The notes: generated from the sequence alone by a model not told the origin. DNA of 35,835 bases from a virus (IMGVR_UViG_3300009164_003004:1-35835); one strand, 5' to 3'; numbered from the stretch's first letter, positions 1,208 through 9,654 are shown. Made by a program: numbers and translations.

Positions 1208-3604
1208 ATGAAATTAATTTTTACAGACATAGTAGAAAACGGCCGCTGGGGAACTACTATATGTGGACCGGGATCCACTTTAGAGTATACTGCACATATC
1301 AGAGCTGCACTGCCACTTCTAATAGAAAAACATAACATCAAATCAATGTTTGATGCTCCATGCGGAGATTTTTCGTGGATGTCTACAATATTCCTTAAGG
1401 CAGCAGATTTTACTTATATTGGTGGCGATATAGTTGATTCCCTTATAACTAATAACAAGGAAAAATATCCTTTGGTTAATTTTATCAATTTTGATTTAAC
1501 TGAAGATAAAATGCCAACAGTTGATTTGTTTTTTTGCAGAGATTGCTTATTCCATTTAAGTTTTAAAAACATTGACCGTGTATTACAAAACTTTATTGAT
1601 AGTGGTAGCAAATACATATTGGTATCAAATCATTATGAAAAAAATTCAACAAATGACATTACTGAAGGAAAGTCAAGATACATAAATTTTTTGCATGCTC
1701 CTTATAATTTTCCAGAACCAATTGATTCAATACAAGATTGGAATCTTCCCGATCCTAAAAGATATATGCTGATGTGGAATAGAGAGACAATAATAAACTA
1801 TTTTGAAATAAAGAACAATATGACTAAAATACCAAAAATTATACATATAATTTGGGTAGGTGACGAAGAAAAGCGACCCGACTCATACATACAAACCTGG
1901 TCTACCTTGAACCCAGACTGGGAAGTAAGACTATGGGGTAATCATGATTACAATAATTATCCTTGGAAAAATAAAAAAGCAATGGAATCATTGTGGGACG
2001 ATGATAAATTCGAAGTAAGTCGTAAAAGTGCTATTGCTGATATAATGCGTTATGAAATATTATATAACCATGGAGGCTTTTGTGTAGATGCAGATGCAGA
2101 ATGTGTTACTAAATTGGAAGATTGGTTATTTGATGCAGAGGCATGTGCAGGGTGGGAAAACGAAGAAGCAAGACCGGGTCTTATTGCTGTTGGTTATATG
2201 GCATCCATTCCTGGCAATGAGTTCTTCAAAAGCATAGTTGACGAAATATACAACGATCCTGACATAACAGACGGCCCGCCCTGGATTAAAACCGGACCCA
2301 CTAGACTGACTAATGCATACAACTCACTTAATTATACTGGTTTAAAAATCTGGCCTTCATACTATTTTATACCAAATCATTACGGAGCACCACCGTACAA
2401 TGGCACAGATACAGTATTTGCAATTCAACATTGGTCAACTACACGAGATATATTGGCAAATGAAGAGTTAAAGCGAAATCCACCAATTCCCAAAGCAAAA
2501 ACTTGTATATATACAATTGCATTAAATGAAATAAAACATGTAGATAGATTTATGGCGCATTGTGCAGGTGCCGATCTTGTGTTAGTTTGTGATACCGGAT
2601 CAACCGACGGAACAGCTGATAGACTCAGAGAGTTGGGTGCTACTGTATATAACATAATGCAAACACCATGGAGGTTTGATGTAGCCAGAAACATAGCATT
2701 AAGTCTTGTTCCGTTAGATATTGATTTATGTATTAGTATAGACTTAGACGAATGCTTACAACCAGGTTGGAGTGAATTAATCGAATTACATTGGCAAGAA
2801 CAACGTGGTCAAATCTCCAGGATCAAGTATGACTATATATGGAATTGGCAACCAGACGGTGTAACACCCGAAGGTAGATTTCATATTAGTAAAATACATA
2901 GCAGAAAAGGATTCCAATGGAAATTCCCATGCCATGAGGTTTTATATAATGCCAGTGGTGAACCAGAGTTTCCTATAGTTAACATTCCCGAAATACAATT
3001 ACATCATAGATCGGACCCTGACAAGAGCAGAGGATCGTATTTGCAATTACTCGAGTTAGGGGTTAAGGAGGATCCACATAGTGATCGTATGCGTCATTAC
3101 TATGGGCGTGAGTTAATGTATAAAGGTCGTTATTCAGAAGCAATTAAAGAATTAGAACATCACGTAAAAATGCCCGAAGCATGGTGGGACGAAGAACGTG
3201 CTGCAAGTTTAAGATATATTTCAAGTTGTTATCGAAATTTAGGCGACAGTGCCAAAAGCATTGAATACGGGATGAAGGCTGTGTTAGAGTGGAATGCCAG
3301 TAGAGAAACTTGGATGGAGTTAGCCGATGCTGCATATGCAGGATCGGATTGGCATACTTGTTATTGGGCAGCAACTAAAGCATTGGCTCTTACTACCATA
3401 ACAACCAGTTATCGGACCGAAGCACGTAATTGGGGTTATAGGCCCTACGATCATGCAGCATTGTCGGCATACCATTTGGGATTGTTTACTGACGCAGTTA
3501 AACATGGCAAAGAAGCAGTGCGCCTATGCCCGGGGGATTCTCGATTACTATCAAACTTACAATTTTATGTAGATGGTTTGAACAAACAATTAGAATTGGC
3601 TTAA
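1208..3604 (+). CDS. Methyltransferase-like / GT32 / GT2 / TPR fusion protein
   Basis: A 798-residue multidomain sugar-modifying protein. Residues 1-200 resemble a class I SAM-dependent methyltransferase (motif DAPCGDF at 49-55, acidic strand end GGDIVD at 72-77). Residues 207-425 resemble the GT32 DXD glycosyltransferases (KIIHIIWVG at 210-218, catalytic DAD at 294-296). Residues 431-610 are a GT2-type domain (DTGSTDGT at 462-469, DLDE at 512-515). Residues 620-798 form helical TPR-like repeats. No strong ribosome binding site is visible; the internal Met205 opens the GT32 domain and could be a second start. It probably glycosylates a cell-surface polysaccharide or a virion protein; acceptor and donor cannot be read. 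The intergenic gap upstream (1110-1207) holds nothing clear. Confidence 0.85.
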   Translation: MKLIFTDIVENGRWGTTICGPGSTLEYTAHIRAALPLLIEKHNIKSMFDAPCGDFSWMSTIFLKAADFTYIGGDIVDSLITNNKEKYPLVNFINFDLTEDKMPTVDLFFCRDCLFHLSFKNIDRVLQNFIDSGSKYILVSNHYEKNSTNDITEGKSRYINFLHAPYNFPEPIDSIQDWNLPDPKRYMLMWNRETIINYFEIKNNMTKIPKIIHIIWVGDEEKRPDSYIQTWSTLNPDWEVRLWGNHDYNNYPWKNKKAMESLWDDDKFEVSRKSAIADIMRYEILYNHGGFCVDADAECVTKLEDWLFDAEACAGWENEEARPGLIAVGYMASIPGNEFFKSIVDEIYNDPDITDGPPWIKTGPTRLTNAYNSLNYTGLKIWPSYYFIPNHYGAPPYNGTDTVFAIQHWSTTRDILANEELKRNPPIPKAKTCIYTIALNEIKHVDRFMAHCAGADLVLVCDTGSTDGTADRLRELGATVYNIMQTPWRFDVARNIALSLVPLDIDLCISIDLDECLQPGWSELIELHWQEQRGQISRIKYDYIWNWQPDGVTPEGRFHISKIHSRKGFQWKFPCHEVLYNASGEPEFPIVNIPEIQLHHRSDPDKSRGSYLQLLELGVKEDPHSDRMRHYYGRELMYKGRYSEAIKELEHHVKMPEAWWDEERAASLRYISSCYRNLGDSAKSIEYGMKAVLEWNASRETWMELADAAYAGSDWHTCYWAATKALALTTITTSYRTEARNWGYRPYDHAALSAYHLGLFTDAVKHGKEAVRLCPGDSRLLSNLQFYVDGLNKQLELA

Positions 3605-6063: not shown

Positions 6064-6071
6064 TATAAATA
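6064..6071 (+). promoter_or_regulatory. Late promoter, exact TATAAATA
   Basis: An exact match to the T4 late promoter element (TATAAATA) recognised by the phage sigma factor gp55 with the sliding clamp. It lies in the gap after the helicase and 23 bases before the TTG start of the next gene. It marks the switch from replication genes to a late block running to about 13057. Confidence 0.7.
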
Positions 6072-6093: not shown

Positions 6094-6342
6094 TTGCAAA
6101 AACGTACTAGAAGTCTGTTAGCTGAGTTAGATAGTATACCTACTAATAGGGACAAGCAACATTTTGTAGAAAGTCGTGCCACAAATCTGATTCAGAGTGC
6201 AATAAATTTAATGAGTTTTATTAAAGAAAACTACGATGTTGAAACAGCCGCCGAACTTGAAAAGCGTTTGTTTAATAGTATTAAAAGCGGTGATTCATCA
6301 AAGTTTGTTCGTGGAATAAGAAAGATTAAAAATGAAAACTAA
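6094..6342 (+). CDS. Small uncharacterised late protein with TTG start
   Basis: An 82-residue, highly charged, helical protein with no recognised motif. The start is TTG, supported by the Shine-Dalgarno-like ACGGAG at 6081-6086, seven bases upstream; no ATG offers a full-length alternative. The gene follows an exact TATAAATA late promoter and overlaps the next gene by 11 bases, so it heads a late operon. A role in head assembly or DNA packaging would fit the context but is not shown by the sequence. Confidence 0.75.
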   Translation: MQKRTRSLLAELDSIPTNRDKQHFVESRATNLIQSAINLMSFIKENYDVETAAELEKRLFNSIKSGDSSKFVRGIRKIKNEN

Positions 6343-8560
6343 TGAAATTATTGTCGACGAAGGGTTGTGGGATGGCATCAAAGCCGCAGGAAGCGCATTA
6401 AAAGGAGCATATAAAGGTGCTATGCAAGGCGGCAAAGACAGTTGGGACCAAGCACCAAGTTCGGGGCAAATGTCGGCAGCACAAAAAGAAATGAAAGCTC
6501 GACTAAAAATGAGCACAGACGACTCATTTGCAGATTGGGGCAAATGGCTGGTAGTTAACCCACAGGCAGATGCTACTGCTATTAATGCAGCAATACAGGC
6601 TTGGTCGGATGCACAATTTAAAGAAGCACTAGTAGACGGCGATGTAACCGAAGTTCCGCTGCCGACTATACAGTCACCAAACGATACACGTTCAATGTAT
6701 GATTATATTGCAAAAAGAACTGAAGAATTTTACAGAAAAGCAAACTTTCCCGGAATGGCACAAACTACAGGCATGTGGGCAGGGGCCGTTGGAAATTTAG
6801 GAGCAGGTACAGCAGCTAACCCAGCCGCTAGTACAGCGCCCGATCCGATAAAAAATATGGCAAAAACTGCCAGTAATACAGTCGATCCTGCCGCGGCCGC
6901 TGCTGGCGAAATTGATCCAAGCATACTTGCAGATATAAAAGCAGAATTGCGTAAGTCTTTTCCTGCAGCCGATGTACGAGCAATGACAGCAAACTTGCCA
7001 CCCGGTGTGTCTGTTGACGACGGAGTAGATTTAGCAATTGCTGCTCATAGTAAACTACGCCCGCCAACCAATAATTATTCAAGACCGGTAGGAACTCCTA
7101 CAAGTATAAAATTTGTCAAAGGACCACAAGGCTGGACCGACGAGAAAACAAAAACTTTAAAAATAACAGATCCAAAAGCAATATCTGCATTAGAAAAATT
7201 ATTAGTACAGCCATCACCACCCCCGGCACCTGTGTCACCCCCGGCTGCTCCGTCTGTAGTAAATAAAGACGGATCAATTACTGTCGCCGGGGCAAAGGGA
7301 AAAGATGCTGGTAAAGTAATGCCTACCGATCCTCGGTATCCAGCGTTAAAAGCAGCATTAGAAAAACAAGCAGGGACAACAACTAAAGCCGATGATTTGG
7401 CTGCTGCTGCCGCCGCATTCTCAGCGGCTGTAAATGCTCGTGCCGCACCAGAAAAACAACCCGGTGTTGCCGGACTACCATCTGCCAAATCCAATATAGA
7501 TCATTTATTGTCGGCAGACGAATTGGCGCAACTTGCTAGTCCAGATTACGGAAAACCCAAGGGAACAACTCGAATTGAACCAACAATGGAACCTGGCGGG
7601 CAAACACAAGGACCAAAGATGGCACAAGATGTAGGATGGTTTGAACCACAGACATTCCCACCAGATGCAAATAGTACAACTACTGTTCCTGAAATAAACG
7701 GCTTAAAATTAATGAAATCAAATTCAACACCAAGAGGTCCACAGCCTCCCAAGGCATTAGAAGAAGAAATGATAAACGAAGGCGGTAATGCAATCGATGC
7801 AGCCGAACCTGTCAATCGCGAAGATGTTCCTAATGTAGTTGAAACAGCTAAACGACTATTGCCTAAAGAATTGTTAAAGAATTTACAAGTAGATATAGGT
7901 TCTGCAGGATTTAAAAAGAAACCATCTGGCGATATTGATTTGATGATCGAAGCAATAGATCTAGTTACTTTGTTTAAAACACATAAAAATACTCCCGAAG
8001 AAACAATCAAAGCCGCGAAAGTTGCATTGCAAACATATCTTGAAGCTAAAGGAATAGATGCCAATGTCAAAGGAAGAAATGTACATGCAGGCATTCCTTA
8101 CTTACAAAAGAGTACGCACCATTCTAAAGTTGCACAAGTTGATTATATGGTAATTGAAGAAGCAAAGATAGTTGCGCATTGGCACCAACACGGTCCACGC
8201 GGTATGTATGATGATGATAATTTTAAAGGTAATGAAATCTTTATATTAATCAGCAGCATAGCAAAACCATTGGGATTAAAGTTTGATCCATTTGCAGCAA
8301 AATTAGTTAATAGAGAAACAGGCGAAATTGTAGCAAGAACTAGAGATCAAGCAGCTAAGATTTTGTTTTACCCACCACCGAGAGAAAAAGGTGATGCATT
8401 TAATAGCGTAAGGTCGATGATTAAAGCATTAGAAAATGACCCTGATAAAGAAGTTAAACTAGCACAAGCAAGAGCCGACGAGAATAAAGGCTTAATTAAA
8501 CTGTACGAAGCAGTTAAGACAGGAAGCCCGGCTTGGTTTAGGAAACTAGCCGACCTATGA
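6332..8560 (+). CDS. Pol-beta-like nucleotidyltransferase with long low-complexity N-terminus; candidate capsid-internal protein
   Basis: A 742-residue protein in two parts. Residues 1 to about 480 are rich in Ala, Pro, Lys and Gly and look flexible. Residues 484-742 contain a nucleotidyltransferase signature: GS at 523-524, GDIDLMI from 533 (Asp534 and Asp536) and a third acidic residue Asp604 in VDYMV, which together form the metal-binding triad of the Pol-beta superfamily. Two sites resemble T4 prohead protease gp21 cleavage motifs: VDE|G at 8-11 and INE|G at 481-484, the latter exactly at the domain boundary. Inference: the N-terminal part targets the protein to the prohead and is removed in processing. 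The substrate is unknown. The stop overlaps the ligase-like gene (ATGA), so they are coupled. Confidence 0.78.
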   Translation: MKTNEIIVDEGLWDGIKAAGSALKGAYKGAMQGGKDSWDQAPSSGQMSAAQKEMKARLKMSTDDSFADWGKWLVVNPQADATAINAAIQAWSDAQFKEALVDGDVTEVPLPTIQSPNDTRSMYDYIAKRTEEFYRKANFPGMAQTTGMWAGAVGNLGAGTAANPAASTAPDPIKNMAKTASNTVDPAAAAAGEIDPSILADIKAELRKSFPAADVRAMTANLPPGVSVDDGVDLAIAAHSKLRPPTNNYSRPVGTPTSIKFVKGPQGWTDEKTKTLKITDPKAISALEKLLVQPSPPPAPVSPPAAPSVVNKDGSITVAGAKGKDAGKVMPTDPRYPALKAALEKQAGTTTKADDLAAAAAAFSAAVNARAAPEKQPGVAGLPSAKSNIDHLLSADELAQLASPDYGKPKGTTRIEPTMEPGGQTQGPKMAQDVGWFEPQTFPPDANSTTTVPEINGLKLMKSNSTPRGPQPPKALEEEMINEGGNAIDAAEPVNREDVPNVVETAKRLLPKELLKNLQVDIGSAGFKKKPSGDIDLMIEAIDLVTLFKTHKNTPEETIKAAKVALQTYLEAKGIDANVKGRNVHAGIPYLQKSTHHSKVAQVDYMVIEEAKIVAHWHQHGPRGMYDDDNFKGNEIFILISSIAKPLGLKFDPFAAKLVNRETGEIVARTRDQAAKILFYPPPREKGDAFNSVRSMIKALENDPDKEVKLAQARADENKGLIKLYEAVKTGSPAWFRKLADL

Positions 8561-9654
8561 AAAAGTCGTTTGTAGATTATTTAATTGAAGCTACCGAAGG
8601 GCCGAGAATACCACATCCAGAGGATAGTATTTTTTCTGGGGTTGCGGAAGCTAAAAAATATCTAACTGCACTTAAACAAGTTGTAGCAGCACCAAACGGC
8701 ATCTCCATTAAATGGGATGGTGGTATTGCATTGTTCTTTGGGCGCCGGGAAGATGGTACATTTTTTTGCTCAGACAAATACATGTATCCCAAGGGAGTAT
8801 TAGCTACAAGCCCTGCACAATGGCTTGAATATGATCAGGCACGTGGATCTAATAGGGGAGATTTGTATGAAAAAATTAAAACAATCTGGCGCGGCCTTGA
8901 GTTTGCTGTAGTAGAAAAAGCAGTATTCAAGGGCGATTTAATGCAGTCAGGGCCTGTTAATATGGTAGATGGCAAATTTCAATTTGCTCCTACTACTGTA
9001 GACTACAAGATTGCACCTGATTCAAAATATGGGCAGTTAATTAATAAAAACACACGTGGTATAATTGTAGTACATCAAAAGAACAATGCACCATGGGATG
9101 GAAAAACTGGCTTGCGCAACGGCGGCGAAGTTGTAGTTATTGAGCCAAAAATTGGTATATCGTTTGCATTAAATTATCCTTCGCAATTGTTTTCTAAAGC
9201 AGATTCATTGCTAAATGGACGCAAAGGTGCCAATGCTGAGTCGTTTTTAAATAGTATTGATGGTGTTGCAAGATCTGCAATTCAAACCTATTTTAATAAA
9301 AAAATTACACAGCAAACCAATGAAGACTTAGATATTTGGTTATCTAAAGGAAATATCAGTACCAAACAGGTAAAGCTATTAGTAACTGGTACAGGTGAAT
9401 TAGATAAAAATGGAAAACCAATTCCTGGTTATTTAATAACGCATAAGCAACAATACCTAGATCTAGTAGATATTTGGAATGCTATCTATGTACTCAAAGA
9501 CAATCTGGTTCAACAATTAGAGAGTCAAGTGGGCGGCATAGAACAGACTATTAAAGGACAACCCGGCGGAGAAGGGTTTGTATTTCCTAGCAGTATAGGC
9601 TTAATTAAGCTGGTAAGCAGGGGGACATTTGGTGCAGCCCACTTTAACAAGTGA
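8557..9654 (+). CDS. ATP-dependent ligase-fold protein; candidate capsid-internal enzyme
   Basis: A 365-residue protein carrying the ordered motifs of the covalent nucleotidyltransferase (DNA/RNA ligase, capping enzyme) superfamily: motif I KWDG at 52-55 with the nucleophile candidate Lys52 and a downstream FGR, a motif III-like KGDLM at 125-129, motif IV EGFVF at 339-343 and motif V IKLV at 350-353. No OB-fold domain follows, so it resembles a minimal adenylation domain with an insertion at about 210-330. The N-terminus MKKSFVDYLIEA resembles the T4 internal-protein capsid targeting sequence and has an LIE|A gp21-type cleavage site at 9-12. I recall similar uncharacterised phage proteins, but activity is not established. 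It is translationally coupled to the upstream nucleotidyltransferase. Confidence 0.72.
   Translation: MKKSFVDYLIEATEGPRIPHPEDSIFSGVAEAKKYLTALKQVVAAPNGISIKWDGGIALFFGRREDGTFFCSDKYMYPKGVLATSPAQWLEYDQARGSNRGDLYEKIKTIWRGLEFAVVEKAVFKGDLMQSGPVNMVDGKFQFAPTTVDYKIAPDSKYGQLINKNTRGIIVVHQKNNAPWDGKTGLRNGGEVVVIEPKIGISFALNYPSQLFSKADSLLNGRKGANAESFLNSIDGVARSAIQTYFNKKITQQTNEDLDIWLSKGNISTKQVKLLVTGTGELDKNGKPIPGYLITHKQQYLDLVDIWNAIYVLKDNLVQQLESQVGGIEQTIKGQPGGEGFVFPSSIGLIKLVSRGTFGAAHFNK

Follow-up and report, generated by a model that had tools for sequence, protein, structure and literature searches.

Adjacent polymerase-like and ligase-like genes with capsid-targeting-like leaders in a T4-related freshwater phage

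What use might a phage have for two nucleotidyltransferases of different folds, encoded side by side behind a candidate late promoter and each beginning with a capsid-targeting-like leader? This question is raised by genes 1 and 2 of IMGVR_UViG_3300009164_003004:1-35835, a 35.8-kb fragment of a T4-related freshwater phage that was analysed over its full 35,835 nucleotides (the window). An original prediction, made from the sequence alone, had described their products as a Pol-beta-type and a ligase-fold protein that are coupled, expressed late, and possibly injected with the DNA in a manner comparable to T4 Alt. Our analysis indicates that the two are very probably coupled enzymes of polymerase-like and ligase-like types, and sequence patterns make it likely that both proteins are packaged and cleaved.

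Two coupled enzyme genes

Both open reading frames (ORFs) and their shared ATGA overlap were recovered as predicted (Table 1), as were the three aspartates of gene 1 (D534, D536, and D604), which are invariant in 53 aligned relatives, and the motifs of gene 2, with K52 in IKWDGG, EGFVF starting at E339, and IKLV containing K351. Related loci were collected by homology searches with one or other of the proteins, with near-identical phages counted repeatedly, and on this basis a gene of the Pfam family DUF6267, to which gene 2 belongs, lies within 3.2 kb downstream of the nucleotidyltransferase (NTase) in 95 of 98 evaluable loci, mostly directly adjacent. Seen from the other side, the NTase is found upstream of HPED-type DUF6267 genes in 84 of 86. 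Furthermore, NTase and DUF6267 form a single ORF in five loci (L027, L042, L028, L139, and L040), which amount to about three distinct fusions because L028 and L139 carry the same sequence. The predicted coupling is thus borne out by linkage as well as by fusion.

In gene 1, the NTase comprises the last ~260 residues only (~484-742), and the assignment as a Pol-beta-type enzyme holds for this part and not for the whole protein, of which residues ~41-470 are Ala/Pro-rich. In many relatives the NTase forms an ORF by itself, about 250-285 amino acids (aa) long and without this region; in the window and close relatives it is joined to the region, which has its own leader. An AlphaFold model of the NTase (270 residues; predicted local distance difference test, pLDDT, 87) was compared by Foldseek with the PDB, where all 50 listed matches were polymerase mu, lambda, beta, or TdT, the best with an E value of 3.6e-5 and a probability of 1.00. 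The alignment with family X spans about 210 columns and reaches past the palm, with a low global template modelling (TM) score of about 0.4, as would be expected if palm and thumb were kept in a different relative orientation. At the sequence level, the Pfam profile DNA_pol_B_palm scored 14.7 bits at 7865-8158, against a curated cut-off of 25 (one-genome search, E 7.8e-4). PDB profile searches returned chance matches only. With the family X polymerases (Pol beta, lambda, mu, and TdT) the NTase shares the palm with GS..SGDIDL and the third Asp; unlike them, it has a leader and an Ala/Pro-rich stretch attached, and its model, with one helix ahead of the palm, shows neither an 8-kDa lyase nor a fingers domain. 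Reduced family X forms such as Pol X of African swine fever virus are also devoid of these two domains. Because the palm profile match is weak and below the Pfam cut-off, and the fold matches come with a low TM score, we call the gene 1 NTase family-X-like and not a family member. A scan of an 84,980-species genome collection yielded no confirmed NTase relative, and therefore no cellular source was found.

Gene 2 belongs to DUF6267 (PF19782; 93.9 bits against a curated cut-off of 27, residues 19-364), a family with relatives in 469 phage records, mostly of cyanophages, and of which no mention was found in the literature searched. Among 101 DUF6267 relatives there is no variation at K52, D54, G55, H173, E339, and G340 and hardly any at D127, K351, and L352. 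In order and spacing, the conserved residues correspond to motifs I, III, IIIa, IV, and V of the covalent nucleotidyltransferases; gene 2 shares the same invariant motifs with PF19782 and PHROG 455. When its model (pLDDT 94) was compared with a viral fold library, DUF6267 itself came first, including fusions to cytidylyltransferase-like domains, followed by named matches that include RNA ligases (one with E 1.1e-3 at a probability of 0.94, another with E 0.017). Gene 2 resembles the RNA/DNA ligase superfamily in its invariant lysine and in the succession of motifs I, III, IV, and V, and its fold matches, in part weak, point the same way. It differs from the superfamily in the large helical region between motifs IIIa and IV and in the absence of an OB domain, the modelled chain stopping shortly past motif V (Table 1). 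The fold comparison proposed along with the prediction gave family X for all listed matches of gene 1, and for gene 2 a viral RNA ligase match next to a weak one in the PDB. As predicted, gene 2 is distinct from the DNA ligase encoded farther along the window, an ordinary ATP-dependent enzyme (PF01068, PHROG 114). The best explanation of its modelled fold is that of a minimal ligase-like enzyme with a predicted adenylation lysine and without an OB domain.

The tandem arrangement varies between loci. Where a gene of about 1 kb lies between NTase and DUF6267, it mostly encodes a second, distinct Pol-beta-type NTase of about 340-350 aa (GSSA...YGDIDLQ...VQIDF), found at L017:5261-6277, L009:1336-2352, and about 30 other loci. 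Many members of this second family start with MK....(I/L)xE↓GGWD (arrows mark predicted cleavage positions), and the family had no match in Pfam, PHROGs, or phage records. At L022:2867-5191, an in-frame fusion joins the first NTase to a downstream protein, which L020, L021, and L024 encode separately, and a radical SAM protein is encoded shortly upstream of the NTase at L007:1363-2526 and also in L018. Other neighbours of DUF6267 or the NTase (L001:6637-8001, L179:4923-5981, L180:4881-5966, and L020:3355-4950) display D...S-(L/V/T)-K patterns with the look of PD-(D/E)xK nucleases, which no profile confirmed.

Leaders, protease-type sites, and a candidate late promoter

The targeting-like N-termini named in the original prediction were confirmed statistically against background ORFs. 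Just before the NTase domain, 76 of 80 distinct sequences carry (L/I/V)-x-E↓GG, as against L/I-x-E-GG near the N-terminus in 2 of 752 background ORFs of the same loci, and three of the four exceptions have Met directly before GG (M↓GG). Entropy at this site is 1.08 bits at position -3 (L/I/V), 2.81 bits at the free position -2, and 0.33 bits at position -1 (E). The site is kept both a few residues from the start and hundreds of residues inside longer proteins, as in the window, where it is internal (INE↓GGN, residues 481-484) and gene 1 has V-D-E as its first site and I-N-E as its internal one. For DUF6267, a leader with [LIVMF]xE was found in 48 of 51 sequences versus 199 of 752 in the background (Fisher p about 7e-23), and that of L162, MKTYREFLTE↓A, is close to MKTYQEFIAE↓A of T4 IPII/IPIII. 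In the fusions L027, L028, and L042, L-x-E↓A is kept at the junction before the DUF6267 core, no longer near a terminus, and the junction of fusion L040 reads L-T-E↓N. Both leaders have very low confidence in the models and are probably disordered.

In T4, the prohead protease gp21 cleaves its substrates behind L/I-x-E, and ten N-terminal residues of IPIII are enough for packaging (PMC9026906). With IPI-IPIII and Alt of T4, the putatively packaged pair has in common predicted late expression, a short N-terminal leader, and the L/I-x-E cleavage-type site (PMC9026906), and it differs in consisting of enzymes of other folds. No ADP-ribosyltransferase family was among the Pfam or PHROG matches of either protein, and T4 Alt is therefore an analogy of delivery only, the comparison drawn originally holding in its logic and not for the enzyme. 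A gp21-type protease is encoded in seven of nine related records and none was found in the 35.8-kb fragment; in the lineage of L021, L024, and L025, the NTase gene follows shortly after protease, scaffold, and capsid genes. Capsid-targeting-like leaders were also seen on P-loop kinase-like proteins and others, such as the ORFs starting MKSFKQYFFEAINGPKIIMIGGPGSGKS and MKKLNQILREGVYDPGIFKAFFLAGGPGSGKT, which suggests that these phages may possess a wider set of packaged enzymes.

The octamer TATAAATA is an established late promoter element in T4. In the window it sits in the 44-bp gap between the helicase and a small gene at 6094, an 82-aa ORF that is the first gene past the candidate promoter and overlaps gene 1. 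Over-representation was rejected as evidence for a late promoter, as the window has three octamers versus 5.1 expected, and the case is confined to octamer position and strand bias. Across 1.58 Mb of related loci, 137 octamers lie on the + and 19 on the - strand, those in intergenic regions being distributed 98 to 12, and in 16 of 89 loci, chiefly those of close relatives, an octamer precedes the NTase. Because of this coding-strand bias, and despite the chance frequency in the window, the site at 6064 is a credible late-promoter candidate, and the promoter claimed by the prediction stands on position and strand bias, not on abundance.

Virion lists of cyanophages bear on packaging as well. 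The cyanophage DUF6267 gene adjoins a CTP_transf-like enzyme, whereas in the window the partner is the polymerase-X-like NTase and gene 2 has a capsid-type leader; PHROG 455 covers both cyanophage proteins in one profile, and viral models such as A0A6J5L7B8 contain the two as a fusion. Cytidylyltransferase-type enzymes are included in the published virion lists, obtained by mass spectrometry, of the cultured cyanophages S-SZBM1 (PMC9146016), S-SCSM1 (PMC9602691), and S-CREM2 (PMC10665884); the authors of the last list caution that such enzymes in a CsCl virion list could be carry-over (PMC10665884). The enzyme of S-SZBM1 is the direct neighbour of DUF6267 and has the leader MRFRQFIIE↓A, and that of S-SCSM1 has MKSFLQFLKE↓A. 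S-SCSM1 was rejected as direct virion evidence for DUF6267 itself, its virion ORFs 89 and 90 not being DUF6267.

Possible roles of the pair

The best explanation, to which we give roughly even chances, is a co-acting pair that is made late, packed, cut free, and probably delivered, and that acts on nucleic-acid ends or gaps. According to this model, both proteins would be synthesized late in T4-type phages, loaded into the prohead via their short N-terminal leaders, freed by a gp21-type prohead protease at (L/I/V)-x-E sites, and delivered with the phage DNA. At the start of infection, the gene 1 product, acting as a family-X-like polymerase or a terminal transferase of reduced form, would add or fill nucleotides, and the gene 2 product would then seal, the two working in sequence. 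Late synthesis, packing, and cutting are supported by sequence patterns, while ejection and activity are steps that we infer. A role in nucleic-acid repair as such falls somewhat short of even chances, with phage DNA slightly preferred over RNA as the presumed substrate. Its most specific form is put forward more tentatively still: an injected end-repair kit of adjacent or fused polypeptides, released by the prohead protease, that would mend the incoming genome (or RNA) before phage gene expression. Modification of host RNA, DNA ends, or proteins had been suggested originally; since gene 1 has a polymerase-X-like and gene 2 a ligase-like fold, processing of nucleic-acid ends or gaps is favoured, and modification of proteins is less indicated.

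Several results weigh against the fill-and-seal model. Motif V of gene 2 has one lysine instead of two, PDB fold matches of DUF6267 are weak (the best, human DNA ligase I, at E 0.15), and its profile had no detectable similarity to the DNA ligase of the window or to T4 RNA ligase 2, so that motifs, model, and fold search are the grounds for calling gene 2 ligase-like. For gene 1, the Pfam thumb domain had no match by sequence in the window. A tblastn search of gene 1 against 50,697 phage records was without a match, as was a search for similar DNA, and no cultured NTase relative was found; therefore, this collection offers no isolate model for the pair. Virion proteomics were found for no phage with the pair, and the DUF6267 protein of S-SZBM1 is absent from the virion list (PMC9146016). 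The latter protein has no leader and its detected neighbour does, so that this single case fits the leader as what matters. Finally, a fill-and-seal role does not explain the cyanophage pairing of DUF6267 with an NAD-type adenylyltransferase-like (CTP_transf-like) enzyme.

Alternatively, host anticodon nucleases might cut host or phage tRNAs that the injected pair then mends, with 3' nucleotides restored by the NTase and the RNA sealed by DUF6267. This would agree with the lack of an OB domain in DUF6267, with the presence of RNA ligases among the best annotated viral folds matched outside its own family, and with the ability of Pol mu and TdT-like folds to use ribonucleotides; however, a kinase or phosphatase for end healing was not found in consistent linkage with the pair, and human DNA ligase I comes first among the PDB matches. 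We regard RNA repair as unlikely. It is quite improbable that the proteins are ordinary intracellular late enzymes that are never packaged, with leaders serving, for example, as a scaffold tether or structural N-terminus: no virion data were found for this lineage and CsCl lists may contain carry-over (PMC10665884), but a conserved L/I/V-x-E whose middle residue is free, which persists internally and at fusion junctions and is replaced mainly by M↓GG, is hard to explain without proteolysis. Least probable, in our view, is a host takeover by AMP- or UMP-ylation of host proteins or RNA, functionally like T4 Alt, with which the packaging-type leaders and the listing of Pol-beta NTases among predicted protein-modifying domains of polyvalent phage proteins (PMC5512222) would agree, but not the match of the NTase model to template-handling family X polymerases, nor a ligase-like partner, the substrates of ligases with such a fold being nucleic-acid ends.

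Neither the delivery system nor the two enzyme superfamilies are of a new kind. As far as the literature and libraries searched show, what appears undescribed is how they are combined here, along with the pair of uncharacterised families and the protease-type sites built into them. The packaged-pair model assigns testable functions to two such families, of which DUF6267 occurs in hundreds of cyanophage genomes, and the leader with its L/I-x-E site offers a sequence signature for enzymes possibly packed into the heads of T4-type phages. If correct, repair enzymes injected with the genome would form a new cargo class in addition to T4 Alt and the internal proteins that counter restriction, and cyanophages would pair the same ligase-like enzyme with a virion-found NAD-type adenylyltransferase-like enzyme.

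Layout of the window

Table 1. Coordinates of genes 1 and 2, their predicted elements, and other genes of the window
Feature	Position	Strand	Remark
Primase-like gene	3647		
Replicative helicase	4643		Followed by a 44-bp gap
T4-type late promoter octamer TATAAATA (candidate)	6064..6071	+	Intergenic, upstream of operon
Small ORF, 82 aa	6094..6342	+	PHROG 11854 'virion structural protein', E 5.5e-17
Gene 1, 742 aa	6332..8560	+	Leader, Ala/Pro-rich region, and C-terminal polymerase-X-like NTase
Gene 1 leader MKTNEIIVDE↓G, residues 1-10	6332..6361	+	Capsid-targeting-like, V-x-E; similar leaders on other proteins
Ala/Pro/Thr-rich region, residues 41-470	6452..7741	+	Between leader and enzyme domain
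INE codons 481-483	7772..7780	+	Predicted prohead-protease site INE↓GGN, directly before enzyme domain
Polymerase-X-like domain, palm and candidate thumb, residues 484-742	7781..8557	+	From structure model, fold search, and conserved Asp
Predicted catalytic triad of gene 1: Asp534; Asp536; Asp604	7931-7933; 7937-7939; 8141-8143	+	
Gene 2, 365 aa	8557..9654	+	Pfam DUF6267; ligase-type covalent nucleotidyltransferase fold (predicted)
Gene 2 leader MKKSFVDYLIE↓A, residues 1-11	8557..8589	+	Capsid-targeting-like; low-confidence (disordered) in model
Motif I K52-W-D-G (IKWDGG)	8710..8721	+	Predicted nucleophilic lysine
Helical region, residues ~209-322	9181..9522	+	Between motifs IIIa and IV; about 110 residues (model)
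Motif IV E339-GFVF and motif V I-K351-LV	9571..9615	+	Chain ends about 12 residues later
Ribonucleotide reductase genes	15914 and 18608		
DNA ligase	26017		Ordinary ATP-dependent; PF01068, PHROG 114

Upstream of the genes in Table 1, the window also contains at 1208-3604 a single ORF with methyltransferase-like and beta-1,4-glycosyltransferase-like regions (PHROG 3382 and 13126).

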